Source: a virus
DNA: 32,780 nt
Virus record (IMG/VR): IMGVR_UViG_3300046460_000180
Coordinates: 1-32,780 of that record
Direction: 5' to 3' (one strand)
Shown: piece by piece, positions 17,659 to 28,900 of the stretch
Position numbering within the stretch: position 1 is the first letter of the stretch
How the letters are laid out: every line of letters begins with the position of its first letter
Position numbers and translations under genes: made by a program
The notes under the pieces: generated by a model
The model's input: the letters and a program-made list of their open reading frames with translations, nothing else
The model's database searches: none
Told to the model about the DNA's origin: nothing

Positions 17659-18885
17659 ATGACCACACACCACGTTGGCCAACGGATCCGCGAGCTGCGC
17701 AAGGTTCGGCAGCTCTCCGTGCGGCAGTTGGCCGGCCGAGTCGCCATCTCCGTGAGCCTTCTGGAGAAGGTCGAACGGGGCGACCGCACACCGAACCCCG
17801 GCCTGATCGCCCAGCTCGCCCAGGCGCTCGCCGTCGGCCCAGACAGAATCACCGGCCAGCCGTTCATCAACGGCGCCGAAACCGAGGACCAGGTCCAGGC
17901 CGTCATCCCCGAACTGCGCCGCATCCTCCTCACGTACGACAACCCCGACGACCTAGTAACTGCCCCCCGCCCGCTTCCGGTCCTCGCCGCCGAGATGGAC
18001 CACGTCACACAGATGCGGCAAGACGGGCAGTACGTCCCCATGGGCCCGCTGCTCCCCGGCCTGCTCGCCGAGCTCACCCACACTGCTCTGTCCACCCAAG
18101 GCGAGCAGCAGCGCCAGGCATTCTGGTGGCTCGCCCGCGGCTACCGGGCCACCAACTCGCTGGCGCACAAGCTCGGATACCACGACTTGAGCCTCACAGC
18201 GGTTGAGCGAGTCCACTGGGCTGCGGACCGGTCCGGTGACCCCCTCATGCAGGTGACGGCTGCGTACCTGAAGTCCGGGGCCATGGTCAGGATGGGCGCG
18301 TTCGGATCGGCACGCCGCCTGCTGGAGGGGCTGGAGCGCGAAATCGAGCGCCTCGCCCCTGAAGAGGCTCTCACCGAGGCGCAGGTCGCCGTGCAGGGCG
18401 CCGTACTCCTGAAGCTGGCAATCCTCGAAGCGCGCGACGGCCGGCCGGAGTGGGCGACGCAACGTCTTACCGAGGCCCGCACGGCAGCGGGCATGCTCCG
18501 CGCGGACACCACGCACTACGAGATGAGCTTCGGGCCGACCAACGTCCGCATCCACGAGGTGGCAGCGCTGATCGACATGGGCGACACAGCGCAGGCACTC
18601 GCGCGGCTGCGGGAGTGGGGAGCGGAGCAGGACCGTACAGAGTGGGAGCTCCCGGCGGGAATCGCGGCTGAACGCGCTTCGCATCACCACATTGATGTGG
18701 CTTCGGCCCGGCTTGCAGAGGGCGACCGGCGCGGCGCCTTCGCCGATCTTGCGGTGGCACGAGGGATCAGCCCTGTGCATACCCGATTCCACCCGACCGT
18801 ACGGAGCACCGCAGCGGCGCTTGTACGGCTTGACCGGCACCAGGACGACACGATTGCCGGGTTCGCTCGATGGACTGGCGTGTGA
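17659..18885 (+). CDS. XRE-TPR transcriptional regulator (host-like)
   Basis: 408 residues. The N-terminal helix-turn-helix (about 5-62) reads VGQRIRELRKVRQLSVRQLA, then SVSLLEKVERGDRTPNPGLI and LAQALAVGPDRITG. The remaining 300 residues are all-helical, TPR-like: ALSTQGEQQRQAFWWLARGY, ERVHWAADRSGDPLMQVTAA, ATQRLTEARTAAGMLRA and others. This layout is common in Streptomyces chromosomal regulators and is formally like the RRNPP family, whose TPR part binds a small signal. It sits alone after the late terminator and before small host-like genes. Its target and signal are unknown. The start is supported by AGGGGGCAGG just upstream. Confidence 0.85.
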   Translation: MTTHHVGQRIRELRKVRQLSVRQLAGRVAISVSLLEKVERGDRTPNPGLIAQLAQALAVGPDRITGQPFINGAETEDQVQAVIPELRRILLTYDNPDDLVTAPRPLPVLAAEMDHVTQMRQDGQYVPMGPLLPGLLAELTHTALSTQGEQQRQAFWWLARGYRATNSLAHKLGYHDLSLTAVERVHWAADRSGDPLMQVTAAYLKSGAMVRMGAFGSARRLLEGLEREIERLAPEEALTEAQVAVQGAVLLKLAILEARDGRPEWATQRLTEARTAAGMLRADTTHYEMSFGPTNVRIHEVAALIDMGDTAQALARLREWGAEQDRTEWELPAGIAAERASHHHIDVASARLAEGDRRGAFADLAVARGISPVHTRFHPTVRSTAAALVRLDRHQDDTIAGFARWTGV

Positions 18886-19766: not shown

Positions 19767-20000
19767 TTACTGCCGTACGAGGTCGGCGACGGTGACGTCC
19801 AGGGCGCAAGCGATGCGCCACAGGGTGTCGAGCCGCGGGGACGCGTGTCCGTTCTCGATCTGGCTGATCGCCTGCTTTTCCAGACCGGCGCGGCCGGCCA
19901 ACCGCTCTTGCGTGCAGTTGGCAGCTAGTCGGATGGCGCGTACCTGGTCGCCGACGTGCCGCCGGTAGTCGAGGAGTTCTTCGGGCGATTCGGGGCGCAC
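19767..20000 (-). CDS. Small XRE-family regulator
   Basis: 77 residues from GTG at 20000; an in-frame stop just upstream (20019-20021) leaves this as the first start, with AGGA close before it. Nearly the whole protein is a helix-turn-helix: VGDQVRAIRLAANCTQERLA, GLEKQAISQIENGHASPRL and LWRIACALDVTVADLVRQ. It has no dimerisation or sensor domain. It is leftward and convergent with the small cargo genes. A 14-bp palindrome upstream (20036-20049) may be its operator. Possible roles are a regulator of the neighbouring cassette or a second phage regulator. Confidence 0.8.
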   Translation of the reverse strand: MRPESPEELLDYRRHVGDQVRAIRLAANCTQERLAGRAGLEKQAISQIENGHASPRLDTLWRIACALDVTVADLVRQ

Positions 20001-22352: not shown

Positions 22353-22772
22353 TTAGGGGGCGCTCTCCCCGGCGTCTTTCGCGTGGAGTGCGCGGATCAT
22401 GCTGAGCACTGCTGCTTGGTCGGCGGTGTCGGTGACGCCCAGCGCTTCGAGTGCCTCGTGAGGCGAAGCGGGGCGTCTGGCTTTTTTCTTGTCCGCGGCA
22501 ATCTCCTCCGGGGGAAGGAGGCCGGCGCGGGCGATGAGGGGTAGGACGGGGACGTTGAGGGTCTGGCCCACAGCGAGCAGGGTGCGAATGTCGGGCTGTC
22601 CGGTGTCTCCGAGTAGTCGCGAGACGGTGGCCGCAGGGATGCCGGATGCCTCAGCGAAGCGGGCTCGGGTCCCTCGTTCGGCGGGGTCGTATCCGTAGCG
22701 TGGGAGCGCCCAGCGCAGCCACTCGCCGACTGATGCGGTGAGTGGGGGTTCGGGTTGCGAGCCGTTTGTCAT
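22353..22772 (-). CDS. Phage immunity repressor candidate (XRE family)
   Basis: 139 residues from ATG 22772. The N-terminal part has the helix-turn-helix: GTRARFAEASGIPAATVSRL as the core, then PDIRTLLAVGQTLNVPVLPL. The C-terminal 40 residues (ADKKKARRPASPHEALEALG, TADQAAVLSMIRALHAKDAG) are helical and could dimerise; there is no LexA-type protease domain. It is leftward, heads the integrase operon and faces a Cro-like gene, the usual place of the immunity repressor. No Shine-Dalgarno precedes the ATG, and a TACATT -10-like box ends 6 nt before it, so the mRNA may be leaderless. An earlier in-frame ATG (22901) is rejected because the extension looks non-coding. Confidence 0.8.
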   Translation of the reverse strand: MTNGSQPEPPLTASVGEWLRWALPRYGYDPAERGTRARFAEASGIPAATVSRLLGDTGQPDIRTLLAVGQTLNVPVLPLIARAGLLPPEEIAADKKKARRPASPHEALEALGVTDTADQAAVLSMIRALHAKDAGESAP

Positions 22773-23045
22773 AGCGGCAATGTATCGCGCGTGAACGGTT
22801 CTTAGTACTGGTCGCGCAAGTTTTGGGCACGCCTTGCCTTCCCCCCGCCGGTTTCCACGAACGTACGCGCCACTGTATCGGTCAGGCATTCGAATATGCA
22901 CGAGTTCCCCACATCGTGCTCACACAACGTCACACCACCCTCGCCTGATCGTCAAGAGTTGAATCACTCGTTCCATGCGTGATCGGTCTGTGTTATGTTC
23001 CATGCGTGATCGAAACACGATCACGCATGTACCGAAGGAACGCTC
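22773..23045. promoter_or_regulatory. Divergent control region of the lysis-lysogeny switch
   Basis: 273 nt without a gene. Toward the repressor: minus-strand TACATT at 22784-22779. Toward the early operon: a copy of GTTCCATGCGTGATCG at 22970-22985, another at 22997-23012 and an inverted copy of its last 12 bases at 23018-23029. Weaker relatives of the 12-base site (8 of 12 matching on the minus strand) are at 22782-22793 and 22809-22820, beside the repressor start. The layout resembles a lambda-like operator region; binding is inferred. Confidence 0.6.
22992..23029 (+). promoter_or_regulatory. Early promoter/operator module A
   Basis: GTTATGTTC (TATGTT at 22994-22999 as a -10 candidate) followed directly by a perfect dyad: arms CATGCGTGATCG (23001-23012) and CGATCACGCATG (23018-23029) with a 5-nt spacer. 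A further copy of the arm lies at 22974-22985 over the expected -35. It sits just ahead of the GAAGGAA ribosome binding site of the Cro-like gene. A similar module occurs at 27971-28008. Confidence 0.65.
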
Positions 23046-23255
23046 GTGGGCTTCACTCCTCTCCCCCTGCGCGCCGCTGCTGCCGCCCTTGGCGACACCA
23101 CAGCCGTGGCCATCGCTGAACGGCTCGAAACCCCGTACGTCACCGTGCGTCGGTGGACCAGCGGCCGAGGCGTCCCGTCCGGCCCCTCGCTCGCCGACAT
23201 CGAACGCATCTACGGCGTCACGTCTGCCCAGTTGTTCCCCGCGGACGCGGCATGA
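23046..23255 (+). CDS. Cro-like / excise-type HTH protein
   Basis: 69 residues from GTG 23046 with GAAGGAA 5 nt before it. A single helix-turn-helix fills the protein: AAAALGDTTAVAIAERL, then ETPYVTVRRWTSGRGVPSG and LADIERIYGVTSAQLFPADA. It is the first gene of the rightward early operon, opposite the repressor, so Cro is the simplest reading; a recombination directionality factor is the main alternative. Its stop overlaps the next start (ATGA). Confidence 0.78.
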   Translation: MGFTPLPLRAAAAALGDTTAVAIAERLETPYVTVRRWTSGRGVPSGPSLADIERIYGVTSAQLFPADAA

Positions 23256-23467
23256 CCGACGCTGACCGCCTATTCCTCCGGCGCACCGCGATCCGGACAG
23301 CAGCCCGGATCTGGCGAGCAGGCCTGGACTCCATGGACCGCATGACGGTCGCCGACGCAGCCCGCGCCTGCTACTCGCCCGGTGGTCTGCCGCTCGCCGA
23401 ACTGGAACGGGCGATCCGTGCCGACCGGGCCGCCCGAACCCTCCCGAGCCACCGCGCCGCCGCCTGA
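23252..23467 (+). CDS. Small early protein, unknown
   Basis: 71 residues, mostly helical and basic: FLRRTAIRTAARIWRAGLDS, MTVADAARACYSPGGLPLAE, and a final Arg-rich helix. It is coupled to the Cro-like gene by a 4-nt overlap. No family recognised. A small basic helical product at this position could be a directionality factor for the serine integrase, but nothing in the sequence proves it. Confidence 0.68.
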   Translation: MTDADRLFLRRTAIRTAARIWRAGLDSMDRMTVADAARACYSPGGLPLAELERAIRADRAARTLPSHRAAA

Positions 23468-23534
23468 ACAGATGACAAAGGGCCGCCCGGATGCACCCGG
23501 ACGACCCATCACGACCACGGAAAGGCACCGCCTC

Positions 23535-23888
23535 GTGAACCCCAACCGTACCGGCCGCCGCACCCCTCGCGCCGCCGACGCAATCCGCACCGTACGGATC
23601 GCCCGCGCCCTCGCCGCCCTGGCCCCCGATGCCGCCAGGGTCCGCCTCACTCCTGTCTGGACCGACCGGGCCGGTGTCCCCCGCATGGCCACCGTCGTCC
23701 TGATCACCGACAACCACGGCCGCCCCACTGGCAGTCAGACCGCACATCGCGTAGCCCGCGACATCCTGCGGCAGCAGTACAGCCGCGCGAACTGGGCCCG
23801 ACAGCAGCGATACGACGTCCACCGCGGCCGACTCACCCCGCTGTACAACGCGTTCGGGCCCGCCGAGCTCACTGAGGCCGGCCGATGA
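23535..23888 (+). CDS. Early protein, unknown
   Basis: 117 residues from GTG 23535, chosen because GAAAGG lies at 23519-23524; ATG 23472 is in frame but lacks a ribosome binding site and would translate an imperfect GC hairpin (about 23478-23505). The protein is basic: AADAIRTVRIARALAALAPD, VRLTPVWTDRAGVPRMATVV, then HRVARDILRQQYSRANWARQ and YDVHRGRLTPLYNAF. A mixed alpha/beta fold seems likely. No function recognised. Confidence 0.68.
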   Translation: MNPNRTGRRTPRAADAIRTVRIARALAALAPDAARVRLTPVWTDRAGVPRMATVVLITDNHGRPTGSQTAHRVARDILRQQYSRANWARQQRYDVHRGRLTPLYNAFGPAELTEAGR

Positions 23889-24262
23889 TGCGCCCCAGCC
23901 TCACCGCCGACGGGCACCACGTCCGCCTGCCGGTACGCGACCAGCTGCTCGCCCCGCTGCTCGACGACCTCGCCATCTCGTACGCCGAGAACCACGTCGA
24001 GGTAGGACTCTTGCTCGCCGCGCACGCTGCGTCGGTGCTGCGCCTCGACCACGCCGAGGCGTCCGACGACATGCCCGAGTACGAGCGTGCCATTCGGGCC
24101 GCCGGGGCCGACGGCACCCGCGAGGCGCTGCTAGCCGAGCTCCCCATCGACCACCAGGTCGATCCCCTGCTCGGCCCGGACGACGCGATCACTTTCGCCG
24201 GTCGCATCACCCGCCTCGCCGGATACATCCGCCACACCATCCCGAAGGGTCCCCGCACGTGA
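23885..24262 (+). CDS. Early protein, unknown, acidic helical
   Basis: 125 residues, ATGA overlap with the previous gene. It reads LPVRDQLLAPLLDDLAIS, ENHVEVGLLLAAHAASVLRL, then an acidic middle (ASDDMPEYERAIRAAGADG) and a C-terminal ITFAGRITRLAGYIRHTIPK. Probably all-helical and cytoplasmic. No family recognised. The next gene starts in its stop codon (GTGA), so it is expressed as part of the same early chain. Confidence 0.68.
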   Translation: MMRPSLTADGHHVRLPVRDQLLAPLLDDLAISYAENHVEVGLLLAAHAASVLRLDHAEASDDMPEYERAIRAAGADGTREALLAELPIDHQVDPLLGPDDAITFAGRITRLAGYIRHTIPKGPRT

Positions 24263-24717
24263 CCACTCTCGACGACGCCACCCGCAGCCGCCTTATCGAG
24301 CTGCTGGAGCAGGGCGCGACCAATCGGGCCGCGGCTGCAGAGCTCCGCCTCGACAAGAACACGCCCGCCCGCTACCGCCGACAGCTCGGCCTCGGGCGGG
24401 CGGTTCTCCCCCCGCCGCCGACCCGAACCACCGTCACCATCGAGCAGGCATGGCAGGCGAACGTGCGGTCCGTCGATCGCGGCCACATGCAGTGGATCGG
24501 CGGATACAACAACGCGGGCGTGCCCACGTTCACTTACCGGTCCCGCCCCACATCGTCCCGCGTTGTTGCCTTCCGCATCCGAACCGGCCGCGAGCCCGTC
24601 GGATACGTCAAGGTCGAGTGCGACCGGCCCGACTGCGTCGCACCCGCCCACGTCGACGACCGGCCTGGGCGCGAGAACACCGCCCGTCTCCTCACCGAGC
24701 TCGGCGGCACCCTGTGA
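24259..24717 (+). CDS. HTH protein with degenerate HNH-like domain
   Basis: 152 residues. The N-terminal 50 form a helix-turn-helix of the kind used by transposase-like and homing proteins (RLIELLEQGATNRAAAAEL and NTPARYRRQLGLG). Residues about 70-140 align with the HNH protein at 28035-28511: HMQWIGGYNNAGVPTF against [16 protein letters not shown], and VECDRPDCVAPAHVDDR against [17 protein letters not shown]. The catalytic Asp-His of the HNH motif is replaced by Val-Glu here. The fold and metal-binding cysteines appear kept but nuclease activity is unlikely; a DNA-binding or regulatory role is inferred. Confidence 0.7.
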   Translation: MTTLDDATRSRLIELLEQGATNRAAAAELRLDKNTPARYRRQLGLGRAVLPPPPTRTTVTIEQAWQANVRSVDRGHMQWIGGYNNAGVPTFTYRSRPTSSRVVAFRIRTGREPVGYVKVECDRPDCVAPAHVDDRPGRENTARLLTELGGTL

Positions 24718-24941
24718 CGCCCGCCGCCCGCCTCGACCAGGCCCGCCGTCGCCTCGACACCCCGCCGGCCGAACCCGTGCCCGGTCAGCTCGCGGTCGAC
24801 TCCCCGCCGGTCGTCTGCAAGCACGGCAACCCGCGGTGCGGCGCTGTCCCAGCCCGCCCGTACCCGTGCGGTCCGCGGTGCGACGCGCACCAGCCCAGCA
24901 TCACCCGCCCGTTCTCCACCCGCAGGGAGCCGCAGCCGTGA
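24714..24941 (+). CDS. Small early protein with a Cys/His cluster
   Basis: 75 residues, GTGA overlap. A helical start (AARLDQARRRLDTPPAEPVP) is followed by VVCKHGNPRCGAVPARPYPC and GPRCDAHQ, giving four cysteines and two histidines that could form a small zinc site. The tail is Arg/Pro-rich. Function unknown. Confidence 0.6.
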   Translation: MTPAARLDQARRRLDTPPAEPVPGQLAVDSPPVVCKHGNPRCGAVPARPYPCGPRCDAHQPSITRPFSTRREPQP

Positions 24942-25534
24942 GTGTCACCCTGCTGCCCCCGATCTCGTACAGCAGCGGCCCTGTGGACGCCGACCCGCTC
25001 GCCGAGGGCCCGCGCTTTCTGCGGACCGGCGGCATGTCCCGATGGCACCGCCCCCGTTCCGGCGTGCGGTACGCCGACGACCGCACGGTGTACGCGGTGT
25101 GGTGCGGGCAGAGCGTCGGCGGGCTGCGGCTGGCCCGCCCCATGCTCACCGCCGAGACCGTCCCGCCCGGCGAGCTGGTCTGTGCGACGTGCGACGGCCG
25201 GGCAGTCGGTGCCGGGCAGGAAACCGACGGACCGGTCGGCCGGCAGCTGACGTTCGGCCCCCGCAGCCTCACCCCGCCCCGCCACTGCCCCGGTAGCCGC
25301 AGCGGCCTGTACGAGCCGCTGCCCGGCGGCACCACGGGCCGCTGCCTCGCCTGCGGGGACGCTCACCCGACCCGGGCCATGGGCGGCCCGTACGCATCCC
25401 GGTACGCGATCGTCCAGCACCCCCCAGGGCCTCGCCTGTTCGCCCCGTGCCCGTTCCACCGATGGCGGCACCCCACCGCCGTCGGCGGGCGCCTCGCATG
25501 CGCCTGCGGGCGTCCCCTCACCACCCCGCAGTAA
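24938..25534 (+). CDS. Putative zinc-binding protein, unknown
   Basis: 198 residues from GTG 24938 (GTGA overlap). Several cysteine pairs occur: LVCATCDG near residue 89, TGRCLACGDAHP near 138, APCPFHRW near 172 and LACACGRPL near 189, so at least one and perhaps two zinc ribbons. The N-terminal half has MSRWHRPRSGVRYADDRTVY and YAVWCGQSVGGLRLA. Similar multi-CxxC proteins are frequent in Streptomyces phages and integrative elements without known role. A GC hairpin follows it. Confidence 0.65.
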   Translation: MSVTLLPPISYSSGPVDADPLAEGPRFLRTGGMSRWHRPRSGVRYADDRTVYAVWCGQSVGGLRLARPMLTAETVPPGELVCATCDGRAVGAGQETDGPVGRQLTFGPRSLTPPRHCPGSRSGLYEPLPGGTTGRCLACGDAHPTRAMGGPYASRYAIVQHPPGPRLFAPCPFHRWRHPTAVGGRLACACGRPLTTPQ

Positions 25535-25545
25535 CCCCGTACCGC

Positions 25546-25585
25546 CCCGGGGGCGAGGACGAGCCGCCGCGCCCCTCGCCCCGGG
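25546..25585 (+). terminator. GC-rich hairpin before the replication gene
   Basis: GGGGCGAGG (25550-25558) pairs with CCTCGCCCC (25574-25582), extended by CCC-GGG past one bulged G, with a 15-nt loop. It lies in the 82-nt gap between two early genes and lacks a T-tract, so it may attenuate rather than end transcription. Confidence 0.5.
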
Positions 25586-25616
25586 CGCCACACCCCAGAC
25601 AGGAGCACGATCCGCC

Positions 25617-26555
25617 GTGCCATGGTTCAAAGTTGACGACACCGCCCACGCTCATCCGAAGCTGCTCCGGGCGACCAACGCCGCAATCGGCCTGTGGATG
25701 CGGGCCGGAGCGTACGCGGCGCAGCACCTCACCGAGGGCACCGTTCCCGGTGTGGTGGCGCAGCTGTACGGCACCGCTCCGCAGGCTCGGAAGCTGGTAG
25801 CGGTCGGGCTGTGGCATGAGAACGGTCACGCCTGCGCGCGCTGCCCGCAGCCCGCGCCGGGCGACTACTACATGCACGACTTCCTGATCTACAACCCCAC
25901 CAAGGCCGCCGTCGAGACGGAGCGCGAGCAGGCTGCGGGTCGGCAGAAAAGGGCTCGCGAACGCGCTGCGGCGCAGCGTAACCAGACGGGTAATCCCTCC
26001 GGTTCGTCGTCGAATGCGGACTCTTTCGCGGGTGAATCATCGACCGAAAATTCTGAAAGCGGTTCGAATCGAGCTGCGTTTCAGGACGTTTCCGCAGGTC
26101 AGGATGGTTCGTCACAGCGTGACGGGGTTGACCCGTCACGGTCCCCCCGACCCGACCCGTCCCTTACTACTCCCTACGGGAGTAGTAACCCCCCTACCCC
26201 CCAGCGGGGGGAGCAGCAGCCGCCCGCCGCCGCGCTGTTCGAAACGTGGTGGGCGCGCTACGGCCGGGGCACTGCGCAGGGCAAGGCGAGCATCCGCCGC
26301 GCCATTGAGGACGCCCTCGGCAACGGCATCGCCGCGGCCGAGCTGGCGCCTGCGCTCGACCGGCTCGGCCAGACCTCGAAACCGGTCACCGGCGGCACCC
26401 TCCAGTTCGCCCTGTCGGAGATTCGCCGCCCGACCCCCGGGGCCGACGTAATCCCGCTCGACCCGTCCGCCCCCCGCCGTATCGGTCGCGTCGCTGCCGC
26501 ACAAGCGATGTTCGCCGCCGCCGCTGGCCTCGACCCCCAGGAGAACGTTCGATGA
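25617..26555 (+). CDS. Replication protein, DnaD/winged-helix-like (initiator or helicase loader)
   Basis: 312 residues. The first residues, MPWFKVDDTAHAHPK, and the following LLRATNAAIGLWMRAGAYAA are typical of actinophage replication proteins with an N-terminal winged helix. Residues about 100-205 are a low-complexity linker rich in Ser, Asn, Gln and Pro. The C-terminal part (about 210-290: FETWWARYGRGTAQGKASIR, ALGNGIAAAELAPALDRLG) is a helical domain like the DnaD/DnaB C2-type region. It probably marks the origin and recruits the host helicase. GTG 25617 is used, with AGGAG 12 nt away. The linker DNA holds several inverted repeats that may be the origin. Confidence 0.75.
   Translation: MPWFKVDDTAHAHPKLLRATNAAIGLWMRAGAYAAQHLTEGTVPGVVAQLYGTAPQARKLVAVGLWHENGHACARCPQPAPGDYYMHDFLIYNPTKAAVETEREQAAGRQKRARERAAAQRNQTGNPSGSSSNADSFAGESSTENSESGSNRAAFQDVSAGQDGSSQRDGVDPSRSPRPDPSLTTPYGSSNPPTPQRGEQQPPAAALFETWWARYGRGTAQGKASIRRAIEDALGNGIAAAELAPALDRLGQTSKPVTGGTLQFALSEIRRPTPGADVIPLDPSAPRRIGRVAAAQAMFAAAAGLDPQENVR
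26110..26211. repeat. Cluster of inverted repeats inside the replication gene (origin candidate)
   Basis: Four dyads in 102 bp: CGTCAC/GTGACG at 26110-26115 and 26119-26124; CGTGACGGG/CCCGTCACG at 26118-26126 and 26132-26140; an 11-bp arm pair 26164-26174 and 26178-26188 with a 3-nt loop; and CCCCCC/GGGGGG at 26197-26202 and 26206-26211. An A+T-richer segment lies just upstream, about 26030-26075. An origin inside the initiator gene is a known phage arrangement (lambda O). Confidence 0.5.
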
Positions 26556-27271
26556 TCCGCCAGCACGTTGCCGCGCTCCTCGCCTATGCGGCCAAGCTCG
26601 ATCCCCGTAGCGCCCCCACCGACCCCGCCGCCGCCGCGGAAACCCTCGACCAGTGGTGTGACCTCCTGTCGGACGTTCCGCCGACCGCGCCGCACCCCGA
26701 CGGCCGCGACTGGAACGCGGCCGAAATCGTCCGCCACCACATCGCGACCAGCCCCTACCCGATCAAGCCCAGCGACGTATCCCGCCCGTGGCACGACTTC
26801 AAGCGGGATGTCCTTCGCCGCCACATCGACCCGGTGCCTGCCGCCGACCCCGACGACCAGGTTGCCTACAGTGCCGAGCTGCTCGGCACCCGCCACGCCA
26901 TCGCCACCGGCGAGCAGGCGGCCACCTTCCGGCCGCCGGAGCTCACCCACGGGACGCGTGCCGAGCGCGATGCCGAGGCCAAGAAGCGCCTTGCCGCGCT
27001 CGGCACGTACATGCCCCGCACCGTCAAAGACCAGCTCGACGCCTACCGGCCGCGTAGGGCGCAGCGCGAGCGCCTGGCCGCCGCCAACCAGCCTGATCCG
27101 CTCGACGTGGCGTGCGTGTGGTGCGGCGCCGAAACCGGCGAGCAGTGCCGGGACCGCCGCGTCAACCCCCGCACACAGGCGCTGGCCATGGCCCGTCGCA
27201 CCAAGTCGCACCCGTCCCGAATCGAAGCCGCAACAGCCCGCCACAACGCCCGTACGGAGGCCGCCGCATGA
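26552..27271 (+). CDS. Zinc-ribbon early protein, unknown
   Basis: 239 residues, ATGA overlap with the replication gene. The N-terminal half is helical and Trp-containing: ETLDQWCDLLSDVPPTAPHP, DWNAAEIVRHHIATSPYPIK and VSRPWHDFKRDVLRRHIDPV. The C-terminal part has CVWCGAETGEQCRDRR followed by a possible histidine ligand, a zinc-ribbon-like knuckle seen in many Streptomyces phage proteins. Coupling to the initiator suggests a replication-linked role, which is inferred. Confidence 0.7.
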   Translation: MIRQHVAALLAYAAKLDPRSAPTDPAAAAETLDQWCDLLSDVPPTAPHPDGRDWNAAEIVRHHIATSPYPIKPSDVSRPWHDFKRDVLRRHIDPVPAADPDDQVAYSAELLGTRHAIATGEQAATFRPPELTHGTRAERDAEAKKRLAALGTYMPRTVKDQLDAYRPRRAQRERLAAANQPDPLDVACVWCGAETGEQCRDRRVNPRTQALAMARRTKSHPSRIEAATARHNARTEAAA

Positions 27272-27756
27272 ACCGCAACACCAAGCACCCCGGGCGCACC
27301 TATCGCCGCAAGCCGAACAGTGGCGACCGCACCCGCAACGGCACGGACTGGCGCATCACGGCGAGTTGGGACGCCCGCCCGGACCGGCCGGCCATCCGCA
27401 CCACCAGCGACAAGCGCGCCCGCGACCGCATGATGCGGGCGTTCACCGACGCCGGGGCATACGTGATCCTCGAGGAGTACCGCGGCCACGGCCAGTGGCG
27501 CACCCTCCGTGAGATCGGCGGCCAGGCCGAGGCCGCTGAGCGCGACCGGGCCGACCGTGAGCAGCGCGAGGCCGCCGCACGCGAGGCCCGGCACGCCGCC
27601 GACTACGCCGCCCAGTGCGAGCAGAACACCCGCGCCCTCGACCGCCAGGCCGAGGCCGAGCTCGACGACCTCGCCCGGATCATGCGCCGACCGCCGGTTG
27701 CCCGGGCCGCCGTCGGGCACACCGTCGCCCGTCACGTCACCGGGGCGCAGCGATGA
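27268..27756 (+). CDS. Basic coiled-coil early protein, unknown
   Basis: 162 residues, ATGA overlap. It has a basic start (KHPGRTYRRKPNSGDRTRNG), a middle with DWRITASWDARPDRPAIRTT and AYVILEEYRGHGQWRTLREI, and a long Glu/Arg/Ala helix from about residue 85 to 145 (AEAAERDRADREQREAAARE) likely to form a coiled coil. No family recognised. Confidence 0.65.
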   Translation: MNRNTKHPGRTYRRKPNSGDRTRNGTDWRITASWDARPDRPAIRTTSDKRARDRMMRAFTDAGAYVILEEYRGHGQWRTLREIGGQAEAAERDRADREQREAAAREARHAADYAAQCEQNTRALDRQAEAELDDLARIMRRPPVARAAVGHTVARHVTGAQR

Positions 27757-27923
27757 CCGGCGATGTTCCCGACGCAGTCGGCGCAATCATCGCCGCCGCC
27801 ATCCGGGATCACCCGACCAGCGAGCCCGAGGGACAAGCGCGCTGCGCGGTGGCCGAGCTGGTCCGTGAGGGGTGGGTCATCGCCGCCCCCGGCGTGATCG
27901 CCGCCGCGCTACGGGGCGCGTAA
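27753..27923 (+). CDS. Very small early protein, last gene of operon 1
   Basis: 56 residues, ATGA overlap with the gene before. It reads MTGDVPDAVGAIIAAAIRDH, then GQARCAVAELVREGWVIAAP and GVIAAALRGA, a short alpha/beta protein with no recognised function. A hairpin terminator begins 9 nt after the stop. Confidence 0.6.
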   Translation: MTGDVPDAVGAIIAAAIRDHPTSEPEGQARCAVAELVREGWVIAAPGVIAAALRGA

Positions 27924-27931
27924 CAGAAGCG

Positions 27932-27965
27932 GGGGGGTGCGACACGAGTAGCGAGCGCACCCCCC
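27932..27965 (+). terminator. Hairpin ending early operon 1
   Basis: GGGGGGTGCG (27932-27941) pairs with CGCACCCCCC (27956-27965), 14-nt loop, no T-run. It separates operon 1 from the second promoter/operator module that starts 6 nt later. Confidence 0.7.
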
Positions 27966-27970
27966 AAAGG

Positions 27971-28008
27971 GTTATGTTTCATGCATGAGCGATCGACGAT
28001 CGCGCGAG
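27971..28008 (+). promoter_or_regulatory. Early promoter/operator module B
   Basis: GTTATGTTT (TATGTT at 27973-27978) followed by the dyad CATGCATGAGCG (27980-27991), 5 nt, CGATCGCGCGAG (27997-28008). It has the same layout and the same 5-nt spacing as module A and 29 of 38 identical positions. It lies between a terminator and the HNH/SSB operon, so it probably drives that operon under the same regulator. Confidence 0.6.
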
Positions 28009-28034
28009 AGAGATACGAGAACGGGGATAGATCC

Positions 28035-28511
28035 ATGGCGAGGCAGCAGGCAACCGCCGCGTGGCGCTACTGGTCCCGAGTCAGGTTCGACGGCCCCATT
28101 CCTCTCGTCCGCGGAGTCATCGGCCACTGCAACGAGTGGGACGGCGCCCGCAACGAGCGCGGTTACGGCACGTTCTGGAACAGCCGCACCGTCAAGGCCC
28201 ACCGGTACGCCTACGAACTTGCGCTCGGCGCGATCCCGGCCGGGCTCGACATCGACCACCGGTGCCGCAACCGCCGCTGTGTTCGCCCCAGCCATCTGCG
28301 GGCCGTCACCCACCGCGTGAACCTCCTCGCCAGCACCAACCACGTCGCTCTGCGCGCCGCCCAGGTCGCATGCCATCGCGGCCACCCGTTCGACGACGAC
28401 AACACCATCCGGGCCACCGACGGAACCCGGAAGTGCCGGGCCTGCAAGAACGCCGCCGCCCGCGCCGCGTACCACGCCAACCGCCCCACCACCGAGAGGC
28501 AGGCCGCCTGA
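28035..28511 (+). CDS. HNH endonuclease (HNH_3 type)
   Basis: 158 residues from ATG 28035 (GGGGA upstream; an in-frame ATG at 27981 lies inside the operator). The HNH_3 pattern is complete: [34 protein letters not shown], then the catalytic DHRC with CVRPSHL. A second Cys/His set follows ([12 protein letters not shown] and CRACKNAAA), which may bind another zinc. Such free-standing nucleases are common in phages, as homing elements or helpers in recombination and packaging. Its position as first gene of an operon with SSB suggests a role in DNA metabolism. Confidence 0.88.
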
Positions 28512-28900
28512 TGTCCGGCGAGACCGTCATCACCGTCATCGGAAATCTCACCGCCGACCCCGAGCTCAGGTTCACCCCCGCCGGTGCCCCGGTTGCCAAC
28601 TTCACCATCGCCAACACTCCCCGCATCTTCGACAGGCAGGCGAATGAGTGGAAGGACGCCCCCACGCTGTTCCTGCGCTGCGCGGTCTGGCGTCAAGCCG
28701 CCGAGAACGTCGCCGAGAGTCTCGCCCGCGGCATGCGCGTCATTGTCCAAGGCCGCCTGGTCCAGCGGCCGTACGAAAAAGACGGCGAGAAGCGAACGGC
28801 CTATCAGCTCGACGTCGAGGAGATCGGCCCGTCGCTGAAGTCCGCGACGGCCGCCGTCACCAGGACCAACGCGAGCCGCGACGTCGAGGTCGGCCGATGA
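28511..28900 (+). CDS. ssb: Single-stranded DNA-binding protein
   Basis: 129 residues, TGATG junction with the HNH gene. The OB fold is clear: [29 protein letters not shown], then [38 protein letters not shown] and [14 protein letters not shown]. It would coat single-stranded DNA during replication and recombination as a tetramer. It lacks the acidic DDIPF-type tail by which bacterial SSB recruits partners, ending instead in SRDVEVGR. The only plain replication protein besides the initiator-like one. Confidence 0.94.

Follow-up and report, generated by a model that had tools for sequence, protein, structure and literature searches.

The 32,780-nucleotide virus record IMGVR_UViG_3300046460_000180 (positions 1 to 32,780, hereafter the window) carries two similar sequence modules, module A in front of a gene encoding a Cro-like protein and module B in front of an operon that begins with genes for an HNH endonuclease and a single-strand DNA-binding protein (SSB). 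We propose, with a probability of roughly 0.87, that both modules serve as operators of a single lambda-like immunity switch encoded by the phage. An original prediction, made from the letters of the window, held that one regulator acts at both sites, and we retain this view because the modules covary within the genomes of 25 phages and because the motif is confined to the same two loci in related records. The most likely regulator of both sites is the repressor encoded at 22353-22772, which we assigned this role because a lysogen must silence both operons; the Cro-like protein probably shares the operator units, as in lambda.

Module B is the closest match to module A in the window

The sequences at 22992-23029 (module A) and 27971-28008 (module B) share one layout, GTTATGTT followed by one nucleotide and a 12-5-12 arrangement of two 12-nt arms and a 5-nt spacer, and a script re-count confirmed the predicted coordinates and the predicted identity of 29/38 positions. 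When the 32,780-base window was scanned with the module A 38-mer, the best non-self match on the same strand was by far module B, with 29 identities, and the next unrelated place reached 21; in 200 dinucleotide-preserving shuffles of the window, the best match was 25 and the mean 21.7. A degenerate 22-mer common to both modules, GTTATGTTYCATGCRTGAKCGA, was found with three or fewer mismatches at A and B only, with an expected number of 0. Many equally good matches inside coding regions had been named beforehand as a possible objection to shared operators, and the genome scan returned only A and B in the window.

Module A is a perfect 12-5-12 inverted repeat with a third unit upstream of it: at 22970-22985, 27 bp before the main site, GTTCCATGCGTGATCG repeats the 16 nt of 22997-23012 exactly and in direct orientation, and this upstream-unit arrangement is also present in the related phages L004, L014, L045, and L019. 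Module B is recognizable because each of its arms matches the module A unit CATGCGTGATCG, at 10/12 and 9/12 positions and with the same 5-nt spacing. Its joint score in a two-arm CATGCGTGATCG scan was 19/24, compared with 17/24 at the next best site in the window and a mean of 16.2 (maximum 19) in shuffles. Inside module B lies a perfect 7-1-7 dyad, GCGATCG-A-CGATCGC, at 27989-28003, whose center is 2 nt off the 12-5-12 center. Single 12-nt units with three or fewer mismatches occurred at chance level across the whole window (51 found, 49.4 expected), and therefore only A and B, and not weaker sites such as the unit at the repressor gene (rep) promoter, can be claimed from the window alone.

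Operator sequences differ between phages and match within them

HNH relatives were gathered from viral contigs and bacterial genomes, and a comparison was made of the DNA preceding the HNH and Cro genes in 25 non-redundant phages (the window phage and 24 relatives). The close HNH relatives in bacterial genomes sit in Streptomyces contigs, apparently as prophages. The window virus itself looks like a Streptomyces siphophage, and the isolates nearest to it in the phage collection are AxeJC with seven relatives; AxeJC and its relatives form actinobacteriophage cluster BP and are circularly permuted and probably temperate (PMC9583777).

In all 25 phages the HNH/SSB operon is preceded by a -10-like hexamer that directly adjoins an operator-like module, and the layout is conserved, usually with a G/C-rich hairpin followed by TAnnnT and then the operator-like block. 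The block itself varies between phages and falls into about nine types, among them CATGCGTGATCG in the window, TTCCATCCATGGAAGG in the largest group, CTGTCCAGACAG in L009, L015, and L053, CCACYCGTGGRCGG in L006, L021, and L059, TTTCTCTC in L005, L007, and L008, and a CACTCGTGAG-like sequence in L003, L004, L014, and L045. Phage L059 also has an exact match to the CCACYCGTGGRCGG consensus at 17938-17951 on the minus strand, about 9 kb downstream of its HNH module, which is possibly a chance occurrence or a third site.

Within a phage, the block sequence appears again in its repressor/Cro region, which lies 4-7 kb upstream. When two or fewer mismatches were allowed, the TTCC-type motif TTCCWTCCRYGGAWGG was found only in the rep/cro region and the HNH module in all seven of seven records of 35-40 kb, and the CTGTC, CCAC, and TTTCTCTC types also had their best matches at the rep/cro and HNH promoters, with few elsewhere; the TTTCTCTC phages have one copy at each of the rep, cro, and HNH promoters. 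This distribution bears on a stoperator reading of the repeats, in which they would be dispersed sites where a repressor blocks elongation, as in L5 and R4. Such a system does exist in R4-group Streptomyces phages (PMC10276819), but the sites described here occupy two loci only, both abutting -10 elements, with none elsewhere in the seven whole records, and the main arms are inverted pairs rather than single asymmetric sites, leaving us with hardly any expectation that they act as stoperators.

To score agreement between the two loci, the 48-nt HNH-side module was matched without gaps to the upstream region of its own phage, and the best scores were summed over the 25 phages. The own pairing scored 481, compared with 305 +/- 18 when upstream regions were exchanged between phages, and the maximum of 20,000 exchanges was 384. 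With the target cut to about 950 nt around the cro operator, the score was 481 for the own pairing and 289 +/- 19 for shuffled pairings, of which 0 of 10,000 reached 481. Flank controls given the same treatment were flat (245.5 vs 245.0 for the 48 nt that precede the module and 264.8 vs 269.7 for the opening 48 nt of the HNH gene), indicating that phage relatedness does not explain the covariation. With the phages sorted into the nine operator types, the true pairing was the single best of 362,880, in a test that is not fully independent, the types having been grouped by eye and partly on operator sequence.

Two other origins of the shared sequence can be weighed with these data. It could be a recombination or module-boundary sequence, or the product of a recent duplication or gene conversion, without shared regulation. 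The group is indeed mosaic, as seen in the repressor/Cro regions of AxeJC and Vondra and in the mixed types of L019, but the similarity ends at the edges of the -10/operator block, beyond which the controls are flat, and the match falls at a promoter at either end and has recurred, independently, in several types of operator; we consider such an origin very improbable. Alternatively, the modules might have in common only a conserved promoter core, composed of an extended -10 and the initial transcribed region, that is used by host RNA polymerase with no phage regulator, and the -10-like hexamer is in fact the best conserved part. An element recognized by polymerase should be uniform, however, and the dyad part differs between phages yet matches within each phage, which calls for a phage-specific binding partner. 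The first (left) 12-bp unit in relatives is, in addition, a 5-2-5 dyad far more often than background (44% perfect vs 1.1%), and we give a promoter core alone very little credence. Operators of one immunity switch account best for the match.

Predicted promoters and operator units

On the rep side, nearly all of 19 phages inspected have a TAnnTT-like hexamer placed precisely 6 nt upstream of the ATG, which implies a leaderless repressor mRNA, and in TTCC-type phages the operator spans the rep start codon. On the Cro and HNH sides the operator is directly adjoined by a -10-like hexamer (the T, A, and T of the HNH-side TAnnnT are invariant in 17 aligned phages), such that an occupied operator would cover the -10/start region. 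A terminator had also been predicted in front of module B. A strong hairpin is present there, at 27932-27965 (dG -24.7 kcal/mol, z -4.0), and many relatives retain a hairpin before the HNH promoter, its inner stem pairs showing compensatory changes, but the window hairpin has no T tract and the terminator scan did not list it.

The modules could also be read as RNA elements. However, the module B leader folds no better than shuffles (z 0.4), and the module A hairpin would need transcription from upstream of A's own predicted start, which falls inside the left arm. DNA operators therefore fit better.

From sequence comparison we infer binding, transcription starts, repression, and the dominant regulator at each site as follows. 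Each module would consist of a promoter core (a TAnnnT -10 with no clear -35) whose -10 abuts two operator units, with a third unit upstream in module A. The repressor, produced from its own leaderless mRNA, would bind these units and so cover the -10/start region of each promoter. In a lysogen it would thereby shut off the Cro/replication operon, at about 23.0-27.9 kb, together with the HNH/SSB operon, which extends from 28.0 kb, and the hairpin between the operons should end operon 1 before the HNH/SSB operon. During lytic growth, the Cro-like protein would probably occupy the same units, like lambda Cro.

Repressor or Cro-like protein

A divergent rep/cro pair was detected in 25/25 phages. 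The window repressor matches PHROG 3949, annotated "transcriptional repressor" (E 4.7e-15); Pfam HTH_3, a helix-turn-helix (HTH) family, is its sole domain match (E 6e-4, below the curated cut-off), and no S24 protease/self-cleavage domain was found in its 139 aa. An AF2 model of the repressor (pLDDT 80) compared with the PDB showed only general XRE HTH likeness (best E 2.8e-3), with resemblance, at low E-value significance, to the HTH domains of SinR, DdrO, P22 c2, and 434 Cro. The Cro-like protein matches Pfam HTH_3 with E 2e-4, below the curated cut-off, and its alignment against solved structures gave zero matches.

Operator divergence tracks the divergence of both proteins (rank r 0.48-0.55), and we examined partial correlations for each side. 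The Cro-like protein might be the main or only regulator at module B, shutting off the HNH/SSB operon early in lytic growth, with the repressor acting at module A only. Consistent with such an arrangement, both HTH proteins are encoded beside module A, and divergence of the Cro-side operator remains correlated with that of Cro once repressor and HNH divergence are taken out (partial r 0.25, 8/500; 0.30, 3/500, for the HTH region only), although the partial correlations on that side lean to both repressor and Cro. HNH-side operator divergence, by contrast, follows the repressor with Cro and HNH removed (partial r 0.31, 1/500) and hardly follows Cro with the repressor removed (0.07, 128/500); restriction to the HTH regions reverses the order weakly (0.13 vs 0.19) and is not decisive. 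On balance we consider it unlikely that Cro alone governs module B, and favor the repressor as a regulator of both sites.

Observations that weigh against a single switch

Several observations count against the proposal that one switch controls both operons. Both modules had been predicted to have 12-base inverted arms around a 5-nt spacer, which is exact for module A, but the arms of module B are complementary to each other at 7/12 positions, and the window A unit lacks the internal 5-2-5 dyad of many relatives. A sigma70 scan of 22700-28100 returned zero consensus promoters and no -35, with the -10-like TATGTT as the only clear element. The arms stand 5 nt apart at A and B of the window and 9-10 nt apart at the HNH side of L004, L003, L014, and L045; because the spacing varies between sites, a rigid dimer spanning both arms is unlikely, and the simplest inference is that the two or three units of a module would each be bound on their own, and not as a single dimer site of 29 bp. 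The covariation data, moreover, do not discriminate between repressor and Cro-like protein as the regulator, and the within-genome match is not shown by the AxeJC type (L002, rank 10/25) or by L019 (rank 19/25). Lastly, Vondra and Cumberbatch (L119, L121) differ from AxeJC, Eklok, Ignacio, and Piccadilly (L002, L118, L120, L122) in the repressor/Cro region while their HNH-side modules are nearly identical.

The contrast between the AxeJC group and Vondra/Cumberbatch suggests an exchanged immunity region. L019 (about 1589 and 7940) has a repressor/Cro region related to that of the window and an HNH-side module resembling the TTCCATCC type, and is an apparent mosaic. These mismatched lineages may be recombinants in which the second operon fits the current repressor imperfectly, or their regulators may tolerate the difference.

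Features of the switch region and its surroundings

The features of the switch region are listed in Table 1. The window and cluster BP have a common gene order of serine integrase, membrane protein, and repressor genes (all on the minus strand), followed by Cro-like, ERF or replication genes, HNH, and SSB. Gene order is alike, and DNA similarity to cluster BP phages spans only 4-26% of a 9.5 kb query. Within early operon 1, positions 24259-24717 encode a second HNH-like protein (PHROG 826; it also matches a WhiB-named PHROG). Three more HTH proteins are encoded outside the switch, at 33-599 (before terminase), at 17659-18885 (a 408-aa regulator), and at 19767-20000, the last being a 77-aa HTH_3 protein on the minus strand adjoining the integrase.

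Table 1. Genes and predicted regulatory elements in the switch region of the window
Feature	Position	Strand	Remarks
Repressor gene (rep), 139 aa	22353..22772	-	N-terminal HTH_3 (XRE), all-helical C-terminal part
-10-like TACATT, rep promoter	22779..22784	-	6 nt before rep ATG
Weak operator-unit-like CGCGCGTGAACG (9/12; 3 mismatches) at rep promoter	22786..22797	+	sister phages have a comparable element in this location
Upstream operator unit of module A, GTTCCATGCGTGATCG	22970..22985	+	exact repeat
-10-like TATGTT, Cro-operon promoter	22994..22999	+	aligned hexamer abutting operator on cro side
Module A putative operator CATGCGTGATCG-AAACA-CGATCACGCATG, perfect 12-5-12	23001..23029	+	
Cro-like gene, 69 aa HTH protein	23046..23255	+	opens early operon 1 (about 23.0-27.9 kb)
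G/C-rich hairpin GGGGGGTGCG/CGCACCCCCC, putative operon 1 terminator	27932..27965	+	without T tract
-10-like TATGTT, HNH/SSB-operon promoter	27973..27978	+	
Module B putative operator CATGCATGAGCG-ATCGA-CGATCGCGCGAG, inner perfect dyad 27989-28003	27980..28008	+	
HNH endonuclease gene, 158 aa	28035..28511	+	first gene of early operon 2; Pfam HNH_3 E 3e-16; PHROG 826
Single-strand DNA-binding protein gene	28511..28900	+	overlaps HNH stop codon (ATGA); Pfam SSB E 1.9e-28

Comparison with known immunity systems

Lambda has two tripartite operators that are common to CI and Cro (PMC6550527). The window system resembles lambda CI/Cro and OL/OR in its divergent repressor and Cro genes, in having one regulator set for two operator regions and two early operons, and in the three similar units of module A, which recall OR. 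It differs in that both operons are on the plus strand and on the same (right) side of rep, about 5 kb apart with a hairpin between them, whereas the second operon of lambda, at OL, lies on the opposite side and runs in the opposite direction. The second operon in the window also starts with HNH and SSB genes, and the repressor, having no S24 self-cleavage domain, departs from the self-cleaving, SOS-inducible kind.

The phiC31 and L5 systems contain 18-30 dispersed repressor sites (PMC4557955). Like the window phage, phiC31 is a Streptomyces temperate phage in which one repressor acts at more than one early site, but its sites are many and dispersed, with at least 18 copies compared with two loci in the window, and its repressor gene, which yields three isoforms, follows the structural genes and is transcribed rightward rather than forming part of a divergent repressor/Cro pair. 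In R4, phiJoe, phiScoe, and the L5 stoperator phages, too, one repressor silences several regions, and in stoperator phages the site sequence diverges with the repressor between immunity groups (PMC10276819, PMC6550527). Those stoperators, however, are many, scattered, and act on elongation, whereas sites of the window type are few and promoter-bound. Phage 186 CI represses the early operon promoter pR and a separate, distant promoter, pB, which drives the late-gene activator. Unlike the HNH/SSB promoter, pB does not serve an early replication operon, and the phage 186 proteins are unrelated to those of the window.

The cluster BP phages AxeJC, Eklok, and Vondra have the same gene order as the window, but their HNH-side module has no clear match to their own Cro-side operator, and the cluster BP genome paper mentions neither repressor nor operator (PMC9583777). 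Our literature search found no two-locus, same-strand layout in a cluster-BP-like group, which is weak evidence given that older phiC31 papers lay outside the search. The layout had been put forward as undescribed for the group; that appears to hold for the two-locus, same-strand version, but not for the general principle, as one repressor silencing several promoters is already known (PMC6550527, PMC4557955, PMC10276819).

Tentatively, and at somewhat less than even odds, we suggest that these phages form a natural series with about nine operator specificities, where the repressor, Cro, and three separated promoters (rep, cro, and HNH) must change together, with the mismatched AxeJC group and L019 caught between types and their second early operon outside, or weakly under, immunity control. 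If so, one could test directly how immunity specificity evolves step by step at several unlinked operators; the evolution of repressor/operator specificity has been called poorly understood (PMC6550527). The fixed architecture and varying operator type would predict which phages are mutually immune and would supply operator/repressor pairs for the study of specificity evolution. The proposed switch would thereby provide a testable regulatory map, with three promoters, two operator loci, and one switch, for a widespread group of temperate Streptomyces phages and prophages on which there has been almost no experimental work.

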